Below the pieces are notes generated by a model. The model worked only from the letters and a program-made list of their open reading frames with translations, searched no databases and was not told the DNA's origin. Source: a virus. Taken from it: DNA of 25,503 nucleotides. The stretch is from the IMG/VR virus record IMGVR_UViG_3300005613_000377, positions 1 to 25,503 of that record. One strand, given 5' to 3'. Positions 2,911-8,144 of the stretch are shown here, one piece after another (position 1 is the stretch's first letter; each line of letters begins with the position of its first letter). The position numbers were made by a program, and so were the translations under genes.

Positions 2911-2937
2911 ACCCCTGTCTCTCCGGCAGGGGTTTTT
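2911..2937 (+). terminator. Rho-independent terminator after terminase
   Basis: ACCCCTG (2911-2917) pairs with CAGGGGT (2927-2933) around a 9-base loop and is followed by five T residues (2933-2937). It lies 42 bases after the terL stop and directly before the head-module promoter, so it separates packaging from head transcription. Confidence 0.85.
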
Positions 2938-2938
2938 A

Positions 2939-2970
2939 TTTGCACAATTCCAAATTTTCACTTACTTTTG
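2939..2970 (+). promoter_or_regulatory. Canonical Bacteroidota promoter for the head module
   Basis: TTTG (2939-2942), a 20-base spacer, then TACTTTTG (2963-2970) match the Bacteroidota housekeeping consensus TTTG-N19/20-TAnnTTTG at every specified base. Transcription should start near 2976, giving a leader of about 50 bases that contains the stem-loop at 2991-3010. It sits just downstream of a terminator in the largest gap between genes here. It is the best evidence for the host phylum and implies use of the host sigma factor. Confidence 0.8.
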
Positions 2971-2990: not shown

Positions 2991-3010
2991 CGTGCGAACG
3001 AGCCAGCACG
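2991..3010 (+). promoter_or_regulatory. Leader stem-loop, copy 1
   Basis: CGTGC (2991-2995) pairs with GCACG (3006-3010) around the 10-base loop GAACGAGCCA. The same loop recurs at 7065-7074 before the major capsid gene, where the T-A pair of this stem (2993/3008) is replaced by C-G. The 3' edge is 18 bases from ATG 3029. Conserved loop, compensatory change and fixed spacing suggest an RNA element acting on translation or mRNA stability; a protein-binding DNA site remains possible. Confidence 0.6.
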
Positions 3011-3028
3011 ATCATAAACCATATCAAA

Positions 3029-3673
3029 ATGGCATTATGTTCTTGCCCTCCCGGCTCAGCAATCGGTGACATTACCCTACCTACCTGCCTTGAAGACTTC
3101 GGGCAAATTCAAAAGATGTTTTTTCAGCGCGTCTATTCGACCGGCACTACCAAAAACAAGCTTACCATTGCATCAGCAAATCCGAACGTGATTGCATCAT
3201 GGTCCCCTCTGCTTAGTGCTTCTGACGGCACGAAGGTGGTACAAACCCCTTTCACGGAAGGCGTAACCAATACACCTGGTGAACCACGTCTTGTAGGCGG
3301 CGGCAACGACAGCCTCGGCGGTAAGCAGGCGGTCAAAGGCGCAAACCTTGACCTGTTTGAAGGCAATTTCTATGAGCTGCCGCAGAGCATCGCAAAGGAA
3401 ATCCGCGCCTATGAGTGTGAAATTTTCGGCGTGTACCTTATCAACGAATACGGTCAGATTGGCGGCCTTGCTGATGATAACAGCAACCCGACTGAGTTCT
3501 TCCCTATCCCGGTAGCTGAAAAGACGTTCTTTCTCGGACAAAAACGCTTTGGCGGCTTTGACGAGCGCGATGCTAACGCCTTCCGCTTTGAGGTCCTGCC
3601 GAACGTGCTCGATGAGTTTTACGTAGTGACGCCAACAGACTTTAACCCGCTTGACAAACTTGCAACATCGTAA
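3029..3673 (+). CDS. Phage structural protein, candidate major tail tube protein (214 aa)
   Basis: The 214-residue product starts at ATG 3029, 18 bases after the leader stem-loop and under the strong promoter. It is soluble and beta-rich, with glycine-rich turns (LVGGGNDSLGGKQ), a central FYELPQSIAKEIRAYECEIFGVYLI strand-helix segment and a C-terminal FEVLPNVLDEFYVVTPTDFNPLDKL. It has no signal peptide or catalytic motif. The strong promoter, and the leader element shared with the capsid gene, suggest a high-copy virion protein. No other tail tube candidate is visible between the capsid gene and the tail chaperones, so a displaced tail tube gene is my leading guess. A head decoration protein is the main alternative. 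The family itself I do not recognise. Confidence 0.45.
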   Translation: MALCSCPPGSAIGDITLPTCLEDFGQIQKMFFQRVYSTGTTKNKLTIASANPNVIASWSPLLSASDGTKVVQTPFTEGVTNTPGEPRLVGGGNDSLGGKQAVKGANLDLFEGNFYELPQSIAKEIRAYECEIFGVYLINEYGQIGGLADDNSNPTEFFPIPVAEKTFFLGQKRFGGFDERDANAFRFEVLPNVLDEFYVVTPTDFNPLDKLATS

Positions 3674-3674
3674 G

Positions 3675-3899
3675 ATGGAAGAAACGATCATATTAATCCA
3701 TCCGCAGTCCGGTAAGCCCTACGAATTTGAGGCAGAACATGCTAAGCGGATTTTAGGCATGGGCCACGGGTGGAAGCGGAAAAAGGAAACAGCCGGCAAG
3801 GCGAAGAAAACAAAAACGAGTGCTTCAGCGAAACGAGATAGCGGAAATACTGGACAGCAGGCGCAGCCGGACGATGATTGCGGATGCAATAAGGCATGA
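3675..3899 (+). CDS. Small basic protein with Cys-x-Cys tail (74 aa)
   Basis: ATG 3675 begins one base after the stop of the previous gene (TAAG ATG). Residues 1-30 (EETIILIHPQSGKPYEFEAE...) look like a small beta fold. They are followed by a Lys/Thr/Ser/Ala-rich linker (WKRKKETAGKAKKTKTSASAKR) that is probably disordered and could touch DNA or the portal, and an acidic end DDDCGCNKA with a Cys-Gly-Cys pair. The gene's last 80 bases overlap the start of the portal gene in another frame, so both proteins are encoded there if GTG 3820 is the true portal start. Function unknown; the location suggests a minor head component or portal assembly helper. Confidence 0.7.
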   Translation: MEETIILIHPQSGKPYEFEAEHAKRILGMGHGWKRKKETAGKAKKTKTSASAKRDSGNTGQQAQPDDDCGCNKA

Positions 3900-5568
3900 G
3901 CAGCGTATCCGCTTCCATACTGATATTGCCCTCGATCAGAACAGCGCTGAACGCTATACAACTGAGTACCTGGAATGGGTGAAAACCCTTATCCCGATAC
4001 AGAAGTATGAGCTGTTTTGCAGCCTGTTCCGGTTTCCTGGCAAAACCGTTGAGCTGACAGAGCAAATCTACTCAGCACTCGAAAAGATATTTGACGGCAA
4101 GAACGCTGTCTATAACTACGAGTTCAGTACGCCGGAAGCGGCGCAGGATTGGGATGAGTACCGCGAAGGATGGCAAAAAAAATGGCGGCACAAAGGGATG
4201 AATGCCCTGCGTTGTATGCCTAATTCGGTGCTTATCGTTGACATGCCGGAAGAATCAGAGGATGCTTATTGGTATTTTCTGCCTATATCTGCTGTGCTTG
4301 ACTACGAGCTTGAAGAAGATGGCGTCACATTCGACTATATCATCTTTGAGCAGAAGGACGACCGGATCGCTGTCTTTGACGATGAGGCGATGCAGGTATA
4401 TGAGTACAAGGACAAGACGCTAGGGCAGCAGATCAGCATCGCAACGCACGAGCTAGGCTATACCCCCGCCCGGTTCTTCCTGACCAACGCAGTTAATTTC
4501 AAGCAGCGTGGAGTTAAGCAGAACCCGATCAGCAAGCAGTTAGGCGACCTTGACTGGTATCTGTTTTTCGCCATCTCCGAGCGGCACCTTGACCTGTACG
4601 GCGCTTATCCGATTTATTGGGGCTTTGCTCAGGACTGCGACTATTCAGCGCCTGACAACAGCCGTGACGGGTTTGTGTACTGCGATAGCGGATTCCTCCG
4701 CAGAGATAGCGACAATAGTTATGTGCTTACTCGCGCAGGCAGCAGGGGGCATGGGCACGGCTTACAGCAATGCCCGATGTGCTCAAAGCGTCGGCTCAAC
4801 GGTGCAGGGAGCTTCGTTGAGGTAACGCCTCCAGGCTTAGAAAACGACAAAGCAGACCTGCGCGACCCGGTAGGCATCGTCAGCGTTGACCGCAACAGCC
4901 TGGATTACGTGCGCGAAAAGCGCAAAGCCTATGCGCTTGAGATATTTCAGGCCGTGACAGGCACAGGCGGTGAGATGAGCAAGAACCAGGCAGTCAACGA
5001 AAAGCAGGTAATTGCAAGCTTTGAAAGCAAAGCTCAGGTGCTGCGCAATTTAAAAAGCCAGTTTGAGGCAGCACAGCAGTGGGTGGATGAGACAGTGTGC
5101 CGGCTGCGGTACGGGCTGCAATTCATTAGCGCACATATCAACTACGGCACTGAGTTCTACCTGCATGAACCTGCTGAACTGCTTGAGATGTACCAACAGG
5201 CAAAAAACGCAGGTGTCGACGATAAGATATTATCCATGCTGCAATCAGAATACTACGAGGTGAAGTACAAAAATAACCCGGTAGAGCTGAAGCGCATTAA
5301 GATACTGTCTGACTTAGACCCGTTCCGGCACCTTGACAAGAATCAGGTGCAGGCGATGTACCAAAATGGGGAGATTGAGTACGAACCGTATATGCTGAAA
5401 ATGAACTTCAGCACATTGATTGCACGTTTTGAGCGCGAGAATACAAGCGTTATCCAATTCGGTGAAAACATCGAATATGCAAGCAAAATACAGCGCATTA
5501 CTAATGTGCTTAACAGTTATATTCAACGCCCTGTGATTGCAGCGGCACAAAACCAAAACGATGAGTAA
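3820..5568 (+). CDS. Portal protein (582 aa)
   Basis: This large protein between terminase and scaffold is the portal, the 12-fold ring through which DNA enters the head. The helical N-terminus, EYLEWVKTLIPIQKYELFCSLFRFPGKTVELT and LEKIFDG segments, and a C-terminal half with long helices (SMLQSEYYEVKYKNNPVELKR) match portals of Bacteroidota phages as I recall them; position and length agree. Four cysteines (273, 288 and 318/321 in CPMC) form a C-x14-C-x29-C-x2-C set that resembles a zinc ribbon inserted in the protein. GTG 3820 gives a good amphipathic N-terminal helix but an 80-base overlap with the upstream gene. ATG 3874 is the alternative and would shorten it by 18 residues. The gene ends overlapping the next by 8 bases. 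Confidence 0.85.
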   Translation: MLQRNEIAEILDSRRSRTMIADAIRHEQRIRFHTDIALDQNSAERYTTEYLEWVKTLIPIQKYELFCSLFRFPGKTVELTEQIYSALEKIFDGKNAVYNYEFSTPEAAQDWDEYREGWQKKWRHKGMNALRCMPNSVLIVDMPEESEDAYWYFLPISAVLDYELEEDGVTFDYIIFEQKDDRIAVFDDEAMQVYEYKDKTLGQQISIATHELGYTPARFFLTNAVNFKQRGVKQNPISKQLGDLDWYLFFAISERHLDLYGAYPIYWGFAQDCDYSAPDNSRDGFVYCDSGFLRRDSDNSYVLTRAGSRGHGHGLQQCPMCSKRRLNGAGSFVEVTPPGLENDKADLRDPVGIVSVDRNSLDYVREKRKAYALEIFQAVTGTGGEMSKNQAVNEKQVIASFESKAQVLRNLKSQFEAAQQWVDETVCRLRYGLQFISAHINYGTEFYLHEPAELLEMYQQAKNAGVDDKILSMLQSEYYEVKYKNNPVELKRIKILSDLDPFRHLDKNQVQAMYQNGEIEYEPYMLKMNFSTLIARFERENTSVIQFGENIEYASKIQRITNVLNSYIQRPVIAAAQNQNDE

Positions 5569-6055
5569 GAAAGACGAACGTTTCAACCGGGTAGACGAGC
5601 TGCTGCTAACAGGCATGAGCGAAGAGGATGTCATTGCCCATGTGTGCGATGAGTTCAGCGTCAAGCCTGCAACAGTGCAAAAAGATATTGAAGCCCTGAA
5701 AGCGCAGGACGAGCCGCTGCCCTTTAGCGATGAGCCTGCCAATACCCTGCTCGCTGATGTGCTTGCAAACAGGGTAGACGCAAACGGTGCTGACCTGTCA
5801 GGCATTGAGTACACGCCTGACGACGATGAAAAAGGCTTTGTTCATGCGCTGATTGAGGTGCCGACCTATGACAATAGCACGCCGCCCAAGAAGGACAGCC
5901 GCCCGCGCATTCAAAAATTCGACCCGAAGGCATGGGACAACTTCGGGCGCTATCACCGGGCGCAGGGCTATGTAGTACACGCTGTGCTGCACCTGCCCCA
6001 AGGCGCAAAGGCGCTTGAAGATATTGACATTTTCGGAGCTACCCGCAAAGCATAA
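5561..6055 (+). CDS. Unknown protein between portal and scaffold (164 aa)
   Basis: ATG 5561 lies within the last codons of the portal gene. Residues 1-50 form a helical segment (RVDELLLTGMSEEDVIAHVC then SVKPATVQKDIEALKAQ) that reads like a winged or simple helix-turn-helix. A Pro/Asp-rich linker follows, then a C-terminal part (RIQKFDPKAWDNFGRYHRAQGYVVHAVLHLP). No protease triad is evident, although a maturation protease often occupies this slot in HK97-like phages. The context suggests a minor head protein or an assembly factor acting with the portal. I cannot assign a family. Confidence 0.7.
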   Translation: MSKKDERFNRVDELLLTGMSEEDVIAHVCDEFSVKPATVQKDIEALKAQDEPLPFSDEPANTLLADVLANRVDANGADLSGIEYTPDDDEKGFVHALIEVPTYDNSTPPKKDSRPRIQKFDPKAWDNFGRYHRAQGYVVHAVLHLPQGAKALEDIDIFGATRKA

Positions 6056-6070
6056 CCAAAACTATAGACG

Positions 6071-7042
6071 ATGCCATTGACAGAGGACAAAATCAAACAA
6101 CAAGCAGCGCTGCAAAGCCTTACCGATGAGCAGGTGAAAGCAATTGCAACGCTCAGCGCAAACGATGAACAGCAGGTATTGAGCGAGGCGATAGCCAACA
6201 AAACCCGCGAAATGTGGGACAGGCTGGATGCTGACTTGAAAGAAGTGTTCGGCGTTGATAAGCCGCGTGAGGTGAAATCCTGGGAGCTGCTGAAACAGAC
6301 GCTTACTGAGGCAAAAGAGAAAGCAAGTAAAGCAAGCGAATACGAGCAGGCGCTAAATAAGCTGAAAGGCGAAAAAACGGTGCTTGAAGAGCAGCTCAAA
6401 AGCGGTGATAAATCCGGTATGCTGTCCGGCAGGATTGAAAAGTTGGAACAGCAGATCAAAGACCGCGACACGCAGTTGGCTGCCCTAAAAAGCCAAGTGC
6501 AGGAGAAAGAAAATGAGTACAAGCAGCAGATTGAACAGGAGCGCGATAAGCTTGACCGTTTCGAGTTTGAGCGCCACATTGATAGCGCCCTAGCAGGCGT
6601 AAAGTTCAAGGCTGAGATACCTGATACCATCCGCGAAACGTACATCAAGACAGCCAAAGAGCAGGTGCTGTCACAGTATAAGCGCGATTGGATTGAAAAA
6701 GACGGCAACCGCATCCCTATCTTCCGTGACGATCAGGGGAATATCGTCACCAACCCGAAGAACTTGCAGGAGCCGTATAAACCGCAGGAGTTATTCCTGC
6801 AACAGATTAAGGATGTACTTGCAGACGATGCCAAAGGAGGCACAGGCACGAAGACTAACGGCGAGGGCCGACAGGGCAAAAGTGTCGCCATTGCAGGTAC
6901 GCCACGCACAAAAAGCGAAGCCACAGACATGATCCGGCAAAGCCTGATGGCTGAGGGCATCGCTGCTGATAGCGACGAGTACCACGCCCGCATGAAGGAG
7001 GCTTACTCTGAAATGCAGGTAGACGACTTGCCGCTCCGATAA
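6071..7042 (+). CDS. Capsid scaffold protein (323 aa, coiled coil)
   Basis: The 323-residue protein is highly charged. Its long central coiled coil (about residues 75-170, with runs such as LKGEKTVLEEQLKSGDKSG and KLEQQIKDRDTQLAALKSQV) is followed by a less helical region and a C-terminal charged helix. Position directly before the major capsid gene and this composition are the hallmarks of GP20-like scaffolding proteins, which fill the procapsid, guide shell curvature and then leave. The C-terminal 60 residues (TPRTKSEATDMIRQSLMAEG onward) are the likely capsid-binding end, by analogy with other scaffolds. No separate protease gene is visible, so how the scaffold leaves is unclear. Confidence 0.82.
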   Translation: MPLTEDKIKQQAALQSLTDEQVKAIATLSANDEQQVLSEAIANKTREMWDRLDADLKEVFGVDKPREVKSWELLKQTLTEAKEKASKASEYEQALNKLKGEKTVLEEQLKSGDKSGMLSGRIEKLEQQIKDRDTQLAALKSQVQEKENEYKQQIEQERDKLDRFEFERHIDSALAGVKFKAEIPDTIRETYIKTAKEQVLSQYKRDWIEKDGNRIPIFRDDQGNIVTNPKNLQEPYKPQELFLQQIKDVLADDAKGGTGTKTNGEGRQGKSVAIAGTPRTKSEATDMIRQSLMAEGIAADSDEYHARMKEAYSEMQVDDLPLR

Positions 7043-7060
7043 CTTTATTTTTCACATTGA
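7027..7060 (+). promoter_or_regulatory. Weak promoter-like sequence before the capsid gene
   Basis: CTTG (7027-7030) and CACATTGA (7053-7060) are 22 bases apart. The stretch TTATTTTTCACATTGAG resembles the TTATTTGTACATTAAG sequence before terS. The spacing is off, and a start near 7066 would fall inside the stem-loop at 7061-7078, so capsid mRNA may instead come by read-through from the 2939 promoter. Confidence 0.25.
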
Positions 7061-7078
7061 GCGCGAACGAGCCAGCGC
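7061..7078 (+). promoter_or_regulatory. Leader stem-loop, copy 2
   Basis: GCGC (7061-7064) pairs with GCGC (7075-7078) around the loop GAACGAGCCA, identical to the loop at 2996-3005. It ends 19 bases before ATG 7098, against 18 in copy 1. Sequence outside the stem-loop is not conserved between the copies, so the repeat is confined to the hairpin itself. Confidence 0.6.
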
Positions 7079-7097: not shown

Positions 7098-8144
7098 ATG
7101 AGTTTAGTGAACACTCTGGCTCTTGAGTTCCGCGCCCAATCGCCAGAATTTGACAAAAACGAGTTCCGCGTTACCCGCGCAGGTGCTTTTGATACGTTCA
7201 AGCGCCAAAGCGATGCGCCATCTACCTGGCTGACTGCCGACCTGATTGAGAAGGTACGCCGCAGCTTCGGTAACACCGTCAAGCTGCCAGCTATCAACTA
7301 CAAGGACGTGACCATCCGCAGCACCCGCCCGCTGACGATTGCAGCCGATGAGAACACTTCTGCGCTGTACACCATCAGCTTTACGACTTTGGCGTATGGC
7401 TTCAAGATGTACCCGCAGCAGCATTTCAACAACGATGTGACTTACCAGCAGGACTTCAACAAGAAGTTCGAGGCGATGATCGTCAAGATGATGAGCACGC
7501 TCGAAGGGCTGGCCGTCACGCAGTTGGATGCGCAAAAAACGCAGGTGATTGGCGATGTGACAGGCGGGCACACCTTTGCAGGCAACGTAGTGAGCGAAAC
7601 CGCTGCCAGCCTAAAGGACAGCTATATCCTGTCTGACCTCGACCCGATGATGATGTCTAACGACTACTACGGCATGACGATGGACGTTATCGGCAACCCC
7701 GGATTCCACAGCATTATGCTCCGCATGGAAGGCTTCGGCGAGATGAACCAAGAGGACAAGACCTTACAGTTCATGAACAAGACGATGCACTTCACGAACG
7801 GCATCAGCAATGCAGCAGGCAAAAAAGCGACAGGCTTTGCCGTTGCTGACGGGCAGCTCGGTATCGTTACCCGTGTTGAACCTGACTCTCTGGCATCTAC
7901 ACGTCTGGCGGATGGGCATGAGTGGGGCACGGTGCTTGTGCCTGGACTGGACCTGACGTTCGGAACCTACTACTACGAAAACGCGGTGGACGCTTCCGGC
8001 CTTCACGCAGGCACTACCGGGCTGACGCGGACGTATGAGCAGGCCTTTGACTTCGCTATTGATATTGCGTTCCTTACGCCTTACAACAGCGATGCAACGA
8101 CCATCCCAACGCCGATCATCAAGTTCGACATCGCAACAAGCTAA
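7098..8144 (+). CDS. Major capsid protein (348 aa, HK97-type)
   Basis: The 348-residue protein follows the scaffold and has the composition of an HK97-fold coat protein: an N-terminal arm (residues 1-70), a P-domain-like region with a long helix (FNKKFEAMIVKMMSTLEGLAVTQLD, about 140-165), an A-domain with many Gly/Met turns (SNDYYGMTMDVIGNPGFHSI) and a C-terminal beta-rich segment ending in IPTPIIKFDIATS. It has no cleavable delta domain, in line with the separate scaffold. ATG 7098 lies 19 bases after the conserved stem-loop and has an A-rich leader without Shine-Dalgarno, as expected of strong Bacteroidota genes. A strong terminator follows at 8180-8216. Confidence 0.85.
   Translation: MSLVNTLALEFRAQSPEFDKNEFRVTRAGAFDTFKRQSDAPSTWLTADLIEKVRRSFGNTVKLPAINYKDVTIRSTRPLTIAADENTSALYTISFTTLAYGFKMYPQQHFNNDVTYQQDFNKKFEAMIVKMMSTLEGLAVTQLDAQKTQVIGDVTGGHTFAGNVVSETAASLKDSYILSDLDPMMMSNDYYGMTMDVIGNPGFHSIMLRMEGFGEMNQEDKTLQFMNKTMHFTNGISNAAGKKATGFAVADGQLGIVTRVEPDSLASTRLADGHEWGTVLVPGLDLTFGTYYYENAVDASGLHAGTTGLTRTYEQAFDFAIDIAFLTPYNSDATTIPTPIIKFDIATS

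Follow-up and report, generated by a model that had tools for sequence, protein, structure and literature searches.

The DNA analyzed here, hereafter the window, is a stretch of 25,503 nt comprising the structural module of a phage related to the Bacteroides phage B40-8 and to Croceibacter, Elizabethkingia, Parabacteroides and Flavobacterium phages. It raises the question of what is specified by two hairpins with the same loop, each of which lies shortly upstream of a structural gene. Comparison of phage leaders identifies them as predicted members of a phage-specific family of cis-acting RNA elements, which is found in the leaders of the most abundant virion proteins: the tail tube and capsid proteins and, in most relatives, also the scaffold.

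Organization of the structural module

The relevant features of the window are as follows:

2911..2933, + strand: intrinsic-terminator-like stem-loop after the large terminase gene, setting apart the tail-tube transcript (GC hairpin and T-run, also in relatives)
2939..2970, + strand: putative Bacteroidota-type promoter, TTTG-N20-TACTTTTG (from sequence; the box ends 20 nt 5' of the hairpin)
2991..3010, + strand: RNA hairpin before the tail tube gene, stem CGTGC/GCACG, loop at 2996-3005 (from sequence; homologous hairpins in 42 tube leaders)
3029..3673, + strand: major tail tube protein gene (MP2 of phage B40-8), putatively controlled leader 1 (phrog_8193, E 7e-48; PDB 9wwa)
3675..3899, + strand: small conserved basic protein with a HAERLLRMPNNGGW motif, directly 3' of the tube gene (alignment; low-confidence model)
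6071..7042, + strand: scaffold-like or capsid-associated protein gene (phrog_7970; weak Phage_scaffold match, E 9e-5, below the cutoff)
7061..7078, + strand: RNA hairpin before the major capsid gene, stem GCGC/GCGC, loop at 7065-7074 (from sequence; 59 capsid leaders pass the criterion given below)
7098..8144, + strand: major capsid protein gene (MP1), putatively controlled leader 2 (phrog_7231, E 3e-97; PDB 9ww9 'Capsid protein', E 2e-184)

The gene at 3029, which the initial annotation had left unassigned, encodes the tail tube protein: in addition to the phrog_8193 assignment, its product gives a profile match to PDB 9wwa chain N ('tube protein', E 2e-103), and Foldseek returns tail-tube folds for its predicted model. 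The gene at 7098 is the major capsid gene, as had been proposed, and the scaffold-like gene is located between the two. The mature virion of phage B124-14 contains the MP1 (ORF38), MP2 (ORF42) and ORF39 homologues, as detected by mass spectrometry (PMC3338817); ORF39 is equated with phrog_7970 because of the gene order. The unnamed small-protein family following the tube gene, with its basic tail, is found in 12 of the 12 complete genomes compared and is unannotated in several of the records.

Two hairpins with an identical loop

Both hairpins described by the initial annotation, CGTGC-GAACGAGCCA-GCACG and GCGC-GAACGAGCCA-GCGC, are present on the + strand, with gaps of 18 nt (ATG 3029) and 19 nt (ATG 7098) to the start codons. 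The only differences within their common 18 nt, T2993/A3008 versus C7062/G7077, are pairing partners, and amount to a single compensatory change from a T-A to a C-G pair. The exact loop 10-mer does not recur elsewhere in the window, which has only this one pair of hairpins with a common 10-nt loop. In Markov-1 simulations, any hairpin pair with a common 10-nt loop arose in only 2 of 200 cases, a rarity that without the relatives would be suggestive at most. Likewise, the 14-mer match between the hairpins carries little weight when taken alone, since the window has 11 repeated 14-mer pairs against an expectation of 2.4. It is the conservation in relatives that places the pair far above chance; hence, the original observation was correct, and even understated.

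The hairpins are thermodynamically modest, which is a weak point: the minimum-energy fold of neither window leader contains its hairpin, folding being uninformative at such short lengths. Neither hairpin is followed by a U-run or falls among the intrinsic-terminator candidates, so they do not qualify as terminators. The GGA of CsrA/RsmA sites is absent from the window loop and from the consensus loop AAAGGGUNA of the wider family, and is present in the loop of the tube hairpin of one relative, L127. With loops of 9-10 nt, the hairpins also differ from the lambda-type boxB with its short GNRA-like loop.

Conservation in close relatives and in a wider phage family

A lack of the hairpin before the same genes in related phages had been named as the outcome that would speak against the element. 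The opposite was found: both hairpins are kept in every close relative whose leaders were read. The loop is invariant among relatives with about 92% capsid identity; their capsid stem is TTTGGTGC/GCGCCAAG, a longer stem seen in L122, L123 and L126. The tube hairpin is identical in the leaders L122, L128, L129, L130, L131 and L132. At 71% capsid identity, the more distant L127 has AAGCGC-GAAAGGGCCA-GCGCTT before its capsid gene and CGCTT-GAAGGAGCCA-GAGCG before its tube gene, the loop of the latter including AAGGAG; these are the sole such hairpins in that genome with a stem of more than 3 bp. The window clade is thus characterized by a 10-nt loop variant, GAA(A/C/G)G(A/G)GCCA, that has been altered jointly in both copies.

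For each gene, some 75 non-redundant leaders were then compared, taken from B40-8-like phages of Bacteroidales and Flavobacteriales; 59 capsid and 42 tube leaders passed a hairpin-plus-loop criterion. The element emerges as a stem of 4-8 bp of near-free sequence closing a 9-nt loop, [AC]A[AT]GGGU[ACU]A, in which the GGG is nearly invariant, U7 is invariant at the capsid site and A9 is present in about 94% across the tube and capsid sites; at the capsid site, U7 and A9 are conserved about as strongly as the GGG. Examples are CCGGGU-AAAGGGUCA-AUCCGG, GCGGC-CAAGGGUAA-GCCGU, GGGGC-AAAGGGUCA-GCCCC and CCAGAU-AAAGGGUCA-AUCUGG. This commoner AAAGGGU loop of the wider family had escaped the initial annotation.

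Across 55 distinct sequences the stem shows two-sided changes at every pair, with a covariation score of 0.779 versus 0.186 for shuffled partners, and shifting the partner by a single column destroys the signal. Because these rows had been selected for pairing, the covariation was retested on leaders picked by the loop alone, with no stem criterion: 344 of 440 stem positions are paired, against 210 +/- 11 with shuffled partners. The conservation in relatives and the covarying stem bear out the proposal that abundant virion proteins have a cis-acting RNA element in their leaders.

The element is not uniformly retained. In the group of B40-8, B124-14, BK649P1 and BF698P1, the capsid site has a stem with other loops, or nothing, and no matching hairpin was found in the tube leader of the B40-8 clade. 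Capsid leaders of B. fragilis/ovatus phages (L140, L143, L144 and L146) carry a GC hairpin in the same place with other loops, e.g. GCGA and GTTAA. Separately, a palindrome, TTTTAACGTTAAAA, lies between the hairpin and the start codon in the tube leaders of L135, L137, L138 and L139. The annotated capsid starts of L133, L134 and L140 are 21, 99 and 72 nt downstream of a conserved MSL start; since the N-terminus and the leader are conserved, the upstream start appears to be the right one in these records.

A third site at the scaffold start codon

The initial annotation had proposed a covariance-model search of related phages as a check. With a model built from the tube and capsid sites only and run over 66 sources (0.84 Mb), this search recovered the hairpins along with an unprompted third class at the start codon of the scaffold gene, a site that had previously been missed. 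As read from the table of matches, about 115 of the 121 lie at the three gene starts of the structural module and 119 are on the gene strand. The third site, AAUUC-AAAGGGUUA-GAAUU-AUG, abuts or overlaps the scaffold start codon and occurs in 43 of 67 loci; several others have loop variants of it, e.g. AAGGAGAAA. It covaries independently of the other sites (0.543 versus 0.110), as in the stem variants AUAC/GUAU, AGUAA/UUACU and AAAUC/GAUUU. The scaffold start-codon hairpin is absent from the window and from L151.

A fourth copy was observed in three of the phages (L299:1431-1451, PDS1 22430; L300:1669-1689, AS73P1 31668; L301:2498-2518, TCUEAP2 42497), within a lengthy, purine-rich and non-coding leader of the gene that precedes the large terminase. 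It is flanked by CCTCTTAAAA and TTTTAAGGAGG, which might pair, and is possibly part of a larger structured RNA, or a decoy. The PDS1 gene adjoining the large terminase (gp43, L299:1605-2288) is annotated as an RNA polymerase sigma factor. This annotation is doubtful, as phrog_645 is the best-matching family and the product seems closer to a small terminase or an HTH protein.

Outside this phage family the element is hardly seen. No Rfam match at the gathering score was obtained for the window or 10 relatives; at E<=5 there is nothing at the hairpins, and elsewhere in the window only chance matches of eukaryotic type. The unrelated Bacteroidota phages crAss001, phi14:2, ARB14 and phi40:1 give no model match below E 0.09. 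On the host side, 5 of 198 Bacteroidota genomes have a match at E<=0.01, one of the five being a phage contig; this is close to chance level, and those examined look like coding sequence. The exact 14-mer occurs in IMG/VR mostly in unrelated contigs, as expected given the size of the collection; among the matches listed it is present twice in two close relatives only, and the covariance model gives only marginal matches on 21 of the others (best E 0.12). Some contigs of this phage family (L308, L310, L314 and L315) are in metagenome-assembled genomes labelled Alphaproteobacteria, Propionibacterium and Clostridia, probably through binning contamination. In the literature searched, with subscription journals and supplementary tables beyond reach, we found no published description of the hairpin.

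Position relative to the promoter and the start codon

The position and strand of the hairpin are constant across relatives, and from promoter boxes it is predicted to lie in the mRNA leader. A TAnnTTYG box occurs 2-20 nt upstream of the tube hairpin in 39 of 42 leaders (5% expected), versus 4 of 59 for the capsid hairpin. Given these counts, an mRNA probably begins almost directly with the tube hairpin, and the capsid hairpin is usually internal to the operon. The hairpin lies 27-39 nt from the capsid start codon, or 14-19 nt in the window clade; the tightness of this distance suggests a tie to the initiation of translation rather than to transcription.

Alternative explanations

The initial annotation had left two explanations standing, chance and a DNA operator. 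That the two hairpins merely resemble one another might be argued from the shortness of the element and from the repeated 14-mers counted above, but the conservation and covariation across dozens of divergent phages, together with a third site predicted out of sample, refute chance and leave it a negligible probability. A dimeric regulator binding the inverted repeat as a DNA operator would suit its location near the promoter of the tube gene; however, the half-sites vary freely while their complementarity is kept, and it is the centre, i.e. the loop, that is conserved, the opposite of what fixed half-sites would give. With most capsid copies also devoid of a promoter box, an operator of this kind is now highly improbable. 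Since the hairpin closely follows a promoter and recurs along the operon, the nascent RNA might also present it as a nut/put-like site for antitermination or polymerase loading. We regard this as very unlikely, as the hairpins are at gene starts, at a fixed distance from the AUG and even right at the scaffold start codon, their loops are of 9 nt and an unsystematic look revealed no boxA-like companion.

Two further explanations concern the mRNA itself. The loop could act as a translation enhancer or ribosome standby site, offering an SD-like AAAGGG to the 16S anti-SD or recruiting the 30S subunit otherwise. At the scaffold site the loop is indeed about 8 nt before the AUG, in the position of an SD, with AAGGAG at this site in some relatives and a plain AGAAAGGAG in the B40-8 clade; AAGGAG is also within the tube loop of L127. 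Yet when the loops are permuted, about 33-38% pair at least as well with the anti-SD, the window loop reaching only -2.6 kcal/mol, and on these permutation statistics we rejected anti-SD pairing as the main cause of loop conservation. Such pairing also leaves the conservation of U7 and A9 unexplained, and the tube and capsid loops are too far upstream for an SD. The sequestration of the anti-SD by Bacteroidia ribosomes (PMC9976891) further counts against it, and we consider this role unlikely. Alternatively, the hairpin could be a processing or stability element, shielding the tube mRNA at its 5' end and marking a position where cleavage gives new 5' ends before the scaffold and capsid genes. 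This would accommodate the tube hairpin directly after the promoter box, the mostly operon-internal capsid hairpins and the retention of capsid-site hairpins with other loops in the B40-8 clade. A conserved 9-nt loop is, however, unnecessary for simple stabilization, and since the scaffold hairpin abuts the start codon, a cut there would remove the leader; this too seems improbable.

A putative loop-binding factor

With a stem that is free and a loop that is fixed, the element is therefore best seen as a structured RNA recognized through its loop. The reading that we favor is translational control by a putative loop-binding factor, with feedback repression as its direction, although we rate this as slightly short of an even chance. 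A loop-specific RNA-binding factor, most probably a product of the phage's structural module or else one that evolves together with the phage, would bind the hairpins and jointly set the translation of the tube and capsid mRNAs, and of the scaffold mRNA in most relatives; the repressor might be an unassembled virion or assembly protein. Feedback repression is favored because the same hairpin overlaps the ribosome-binding region of the scaffold gene in relatives. Loop specificity is suggested by U7 and A9, conserved about as well as the GGG at the capsid site, and by the loop change in both copies of the window clade, as predicted if one common, co-evolving partner had changed. Several points argue in the other direction. 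The conserved loop is lost in one clade (B40-8); repression does not necessarily follow from a hairpin located 30 nt upstream; repression of the most abundant proteins is counter-intuitive; and the scaffold site, the one that fits best, is missing from the window.

As to the partner, the structural module accounts for the gene families found in all 12 genomes compared, among them G001, a relative of the window. If it is a phage protein kept throughout, it would probably be a member of one of these families; a factor from the host, or a phage protein that evolves fast, is also conceivable. Across the 12 genomes, no gene tracks the loop type in its presence and absence. A structural case for the tail tube protein as the ligand was rejected, its model resembling ordinary tail-tube folds and giving no support for RNA binding. 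The model of the small HAERLL protein (3675..3899) is too poor to interpret, and it remains an unproven candidate. More specifically, one phage-encoded virion or assembly protein could read the same loop on the tube, scaffold and capsid mRNAs to set the stoichiometry of heads and tails, with the loop and the specificity of the protein shifting together between lineages, as in the window clade; we offer this version tentatively, as it is somewhat unlikely.

Comparison with known systems and significance

The balance of the hundreds of capsid, scaffold and tube copies in tailed phages is mostly explained by transcription, codon or SD strength. The coat-protein operator of MS2/R17 resembles the element in being a loop-specific hairpin at a ribosome-binding region, as at the scaffold site here, for which a virion-protein ligand is conceivable; unlike it, that operator belongs to an RNA phage, doubles as a packaging signal and has no sequence similarity to these hairpins. 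The autoregulation of the P22 scaffolding protein offers a tailed phage with post-transcriptional control of structural proteins including the scaffold, and we know of no shared hairpin there. The closest known mechanism would be that of phage T4, whose DNA polymerase (gene 43) binds a hairpin in its own mRNA, about 40 nt ahead of the start codon, with the loop bases mattering for recognition (PMC3014915). As in the T4/RB69 operator, we find a hairpin in a phage mRNA leader upstream of a start codon, with a covarying stem and a loop that is recognized there (PMC3014915) and conserved here. However, that operator serves one autogenous replication-enzyme gene and has the loop UAAC, whereas the present element, with AAAGGGUNA, is common to two or three structural genes. 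The rpsU gene (bS21) of Flavobacterium likewise exemplifies the selective use of an SD-like sequence in Bacteroidota mRNAs (PMC9976891), but as an extended SD in one host gene rather than a loop in a hairpin 30 nt ahead of structural genes in a phage.

Since textbook copies are carried by cultured phages (Elizabethkingia TCUEAP2, Parabacteroides PDS1, Bacteroides BKO1-3 and Alistipes AS73P1), the element is directly testable, and the putative ligand could yield a new pair of RNA and protein for Bacteroides research. In hosts that make little use of SD pairing, a leader hairpin common to exactly the tube, scaffold and capsid genes suggests that virion proteins are subject to a distinct, post-transcriptional layer of control. 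If one protein does read this loop on the three mRNAs, it would constitute a new RNA regulon in tailed DNA phages.
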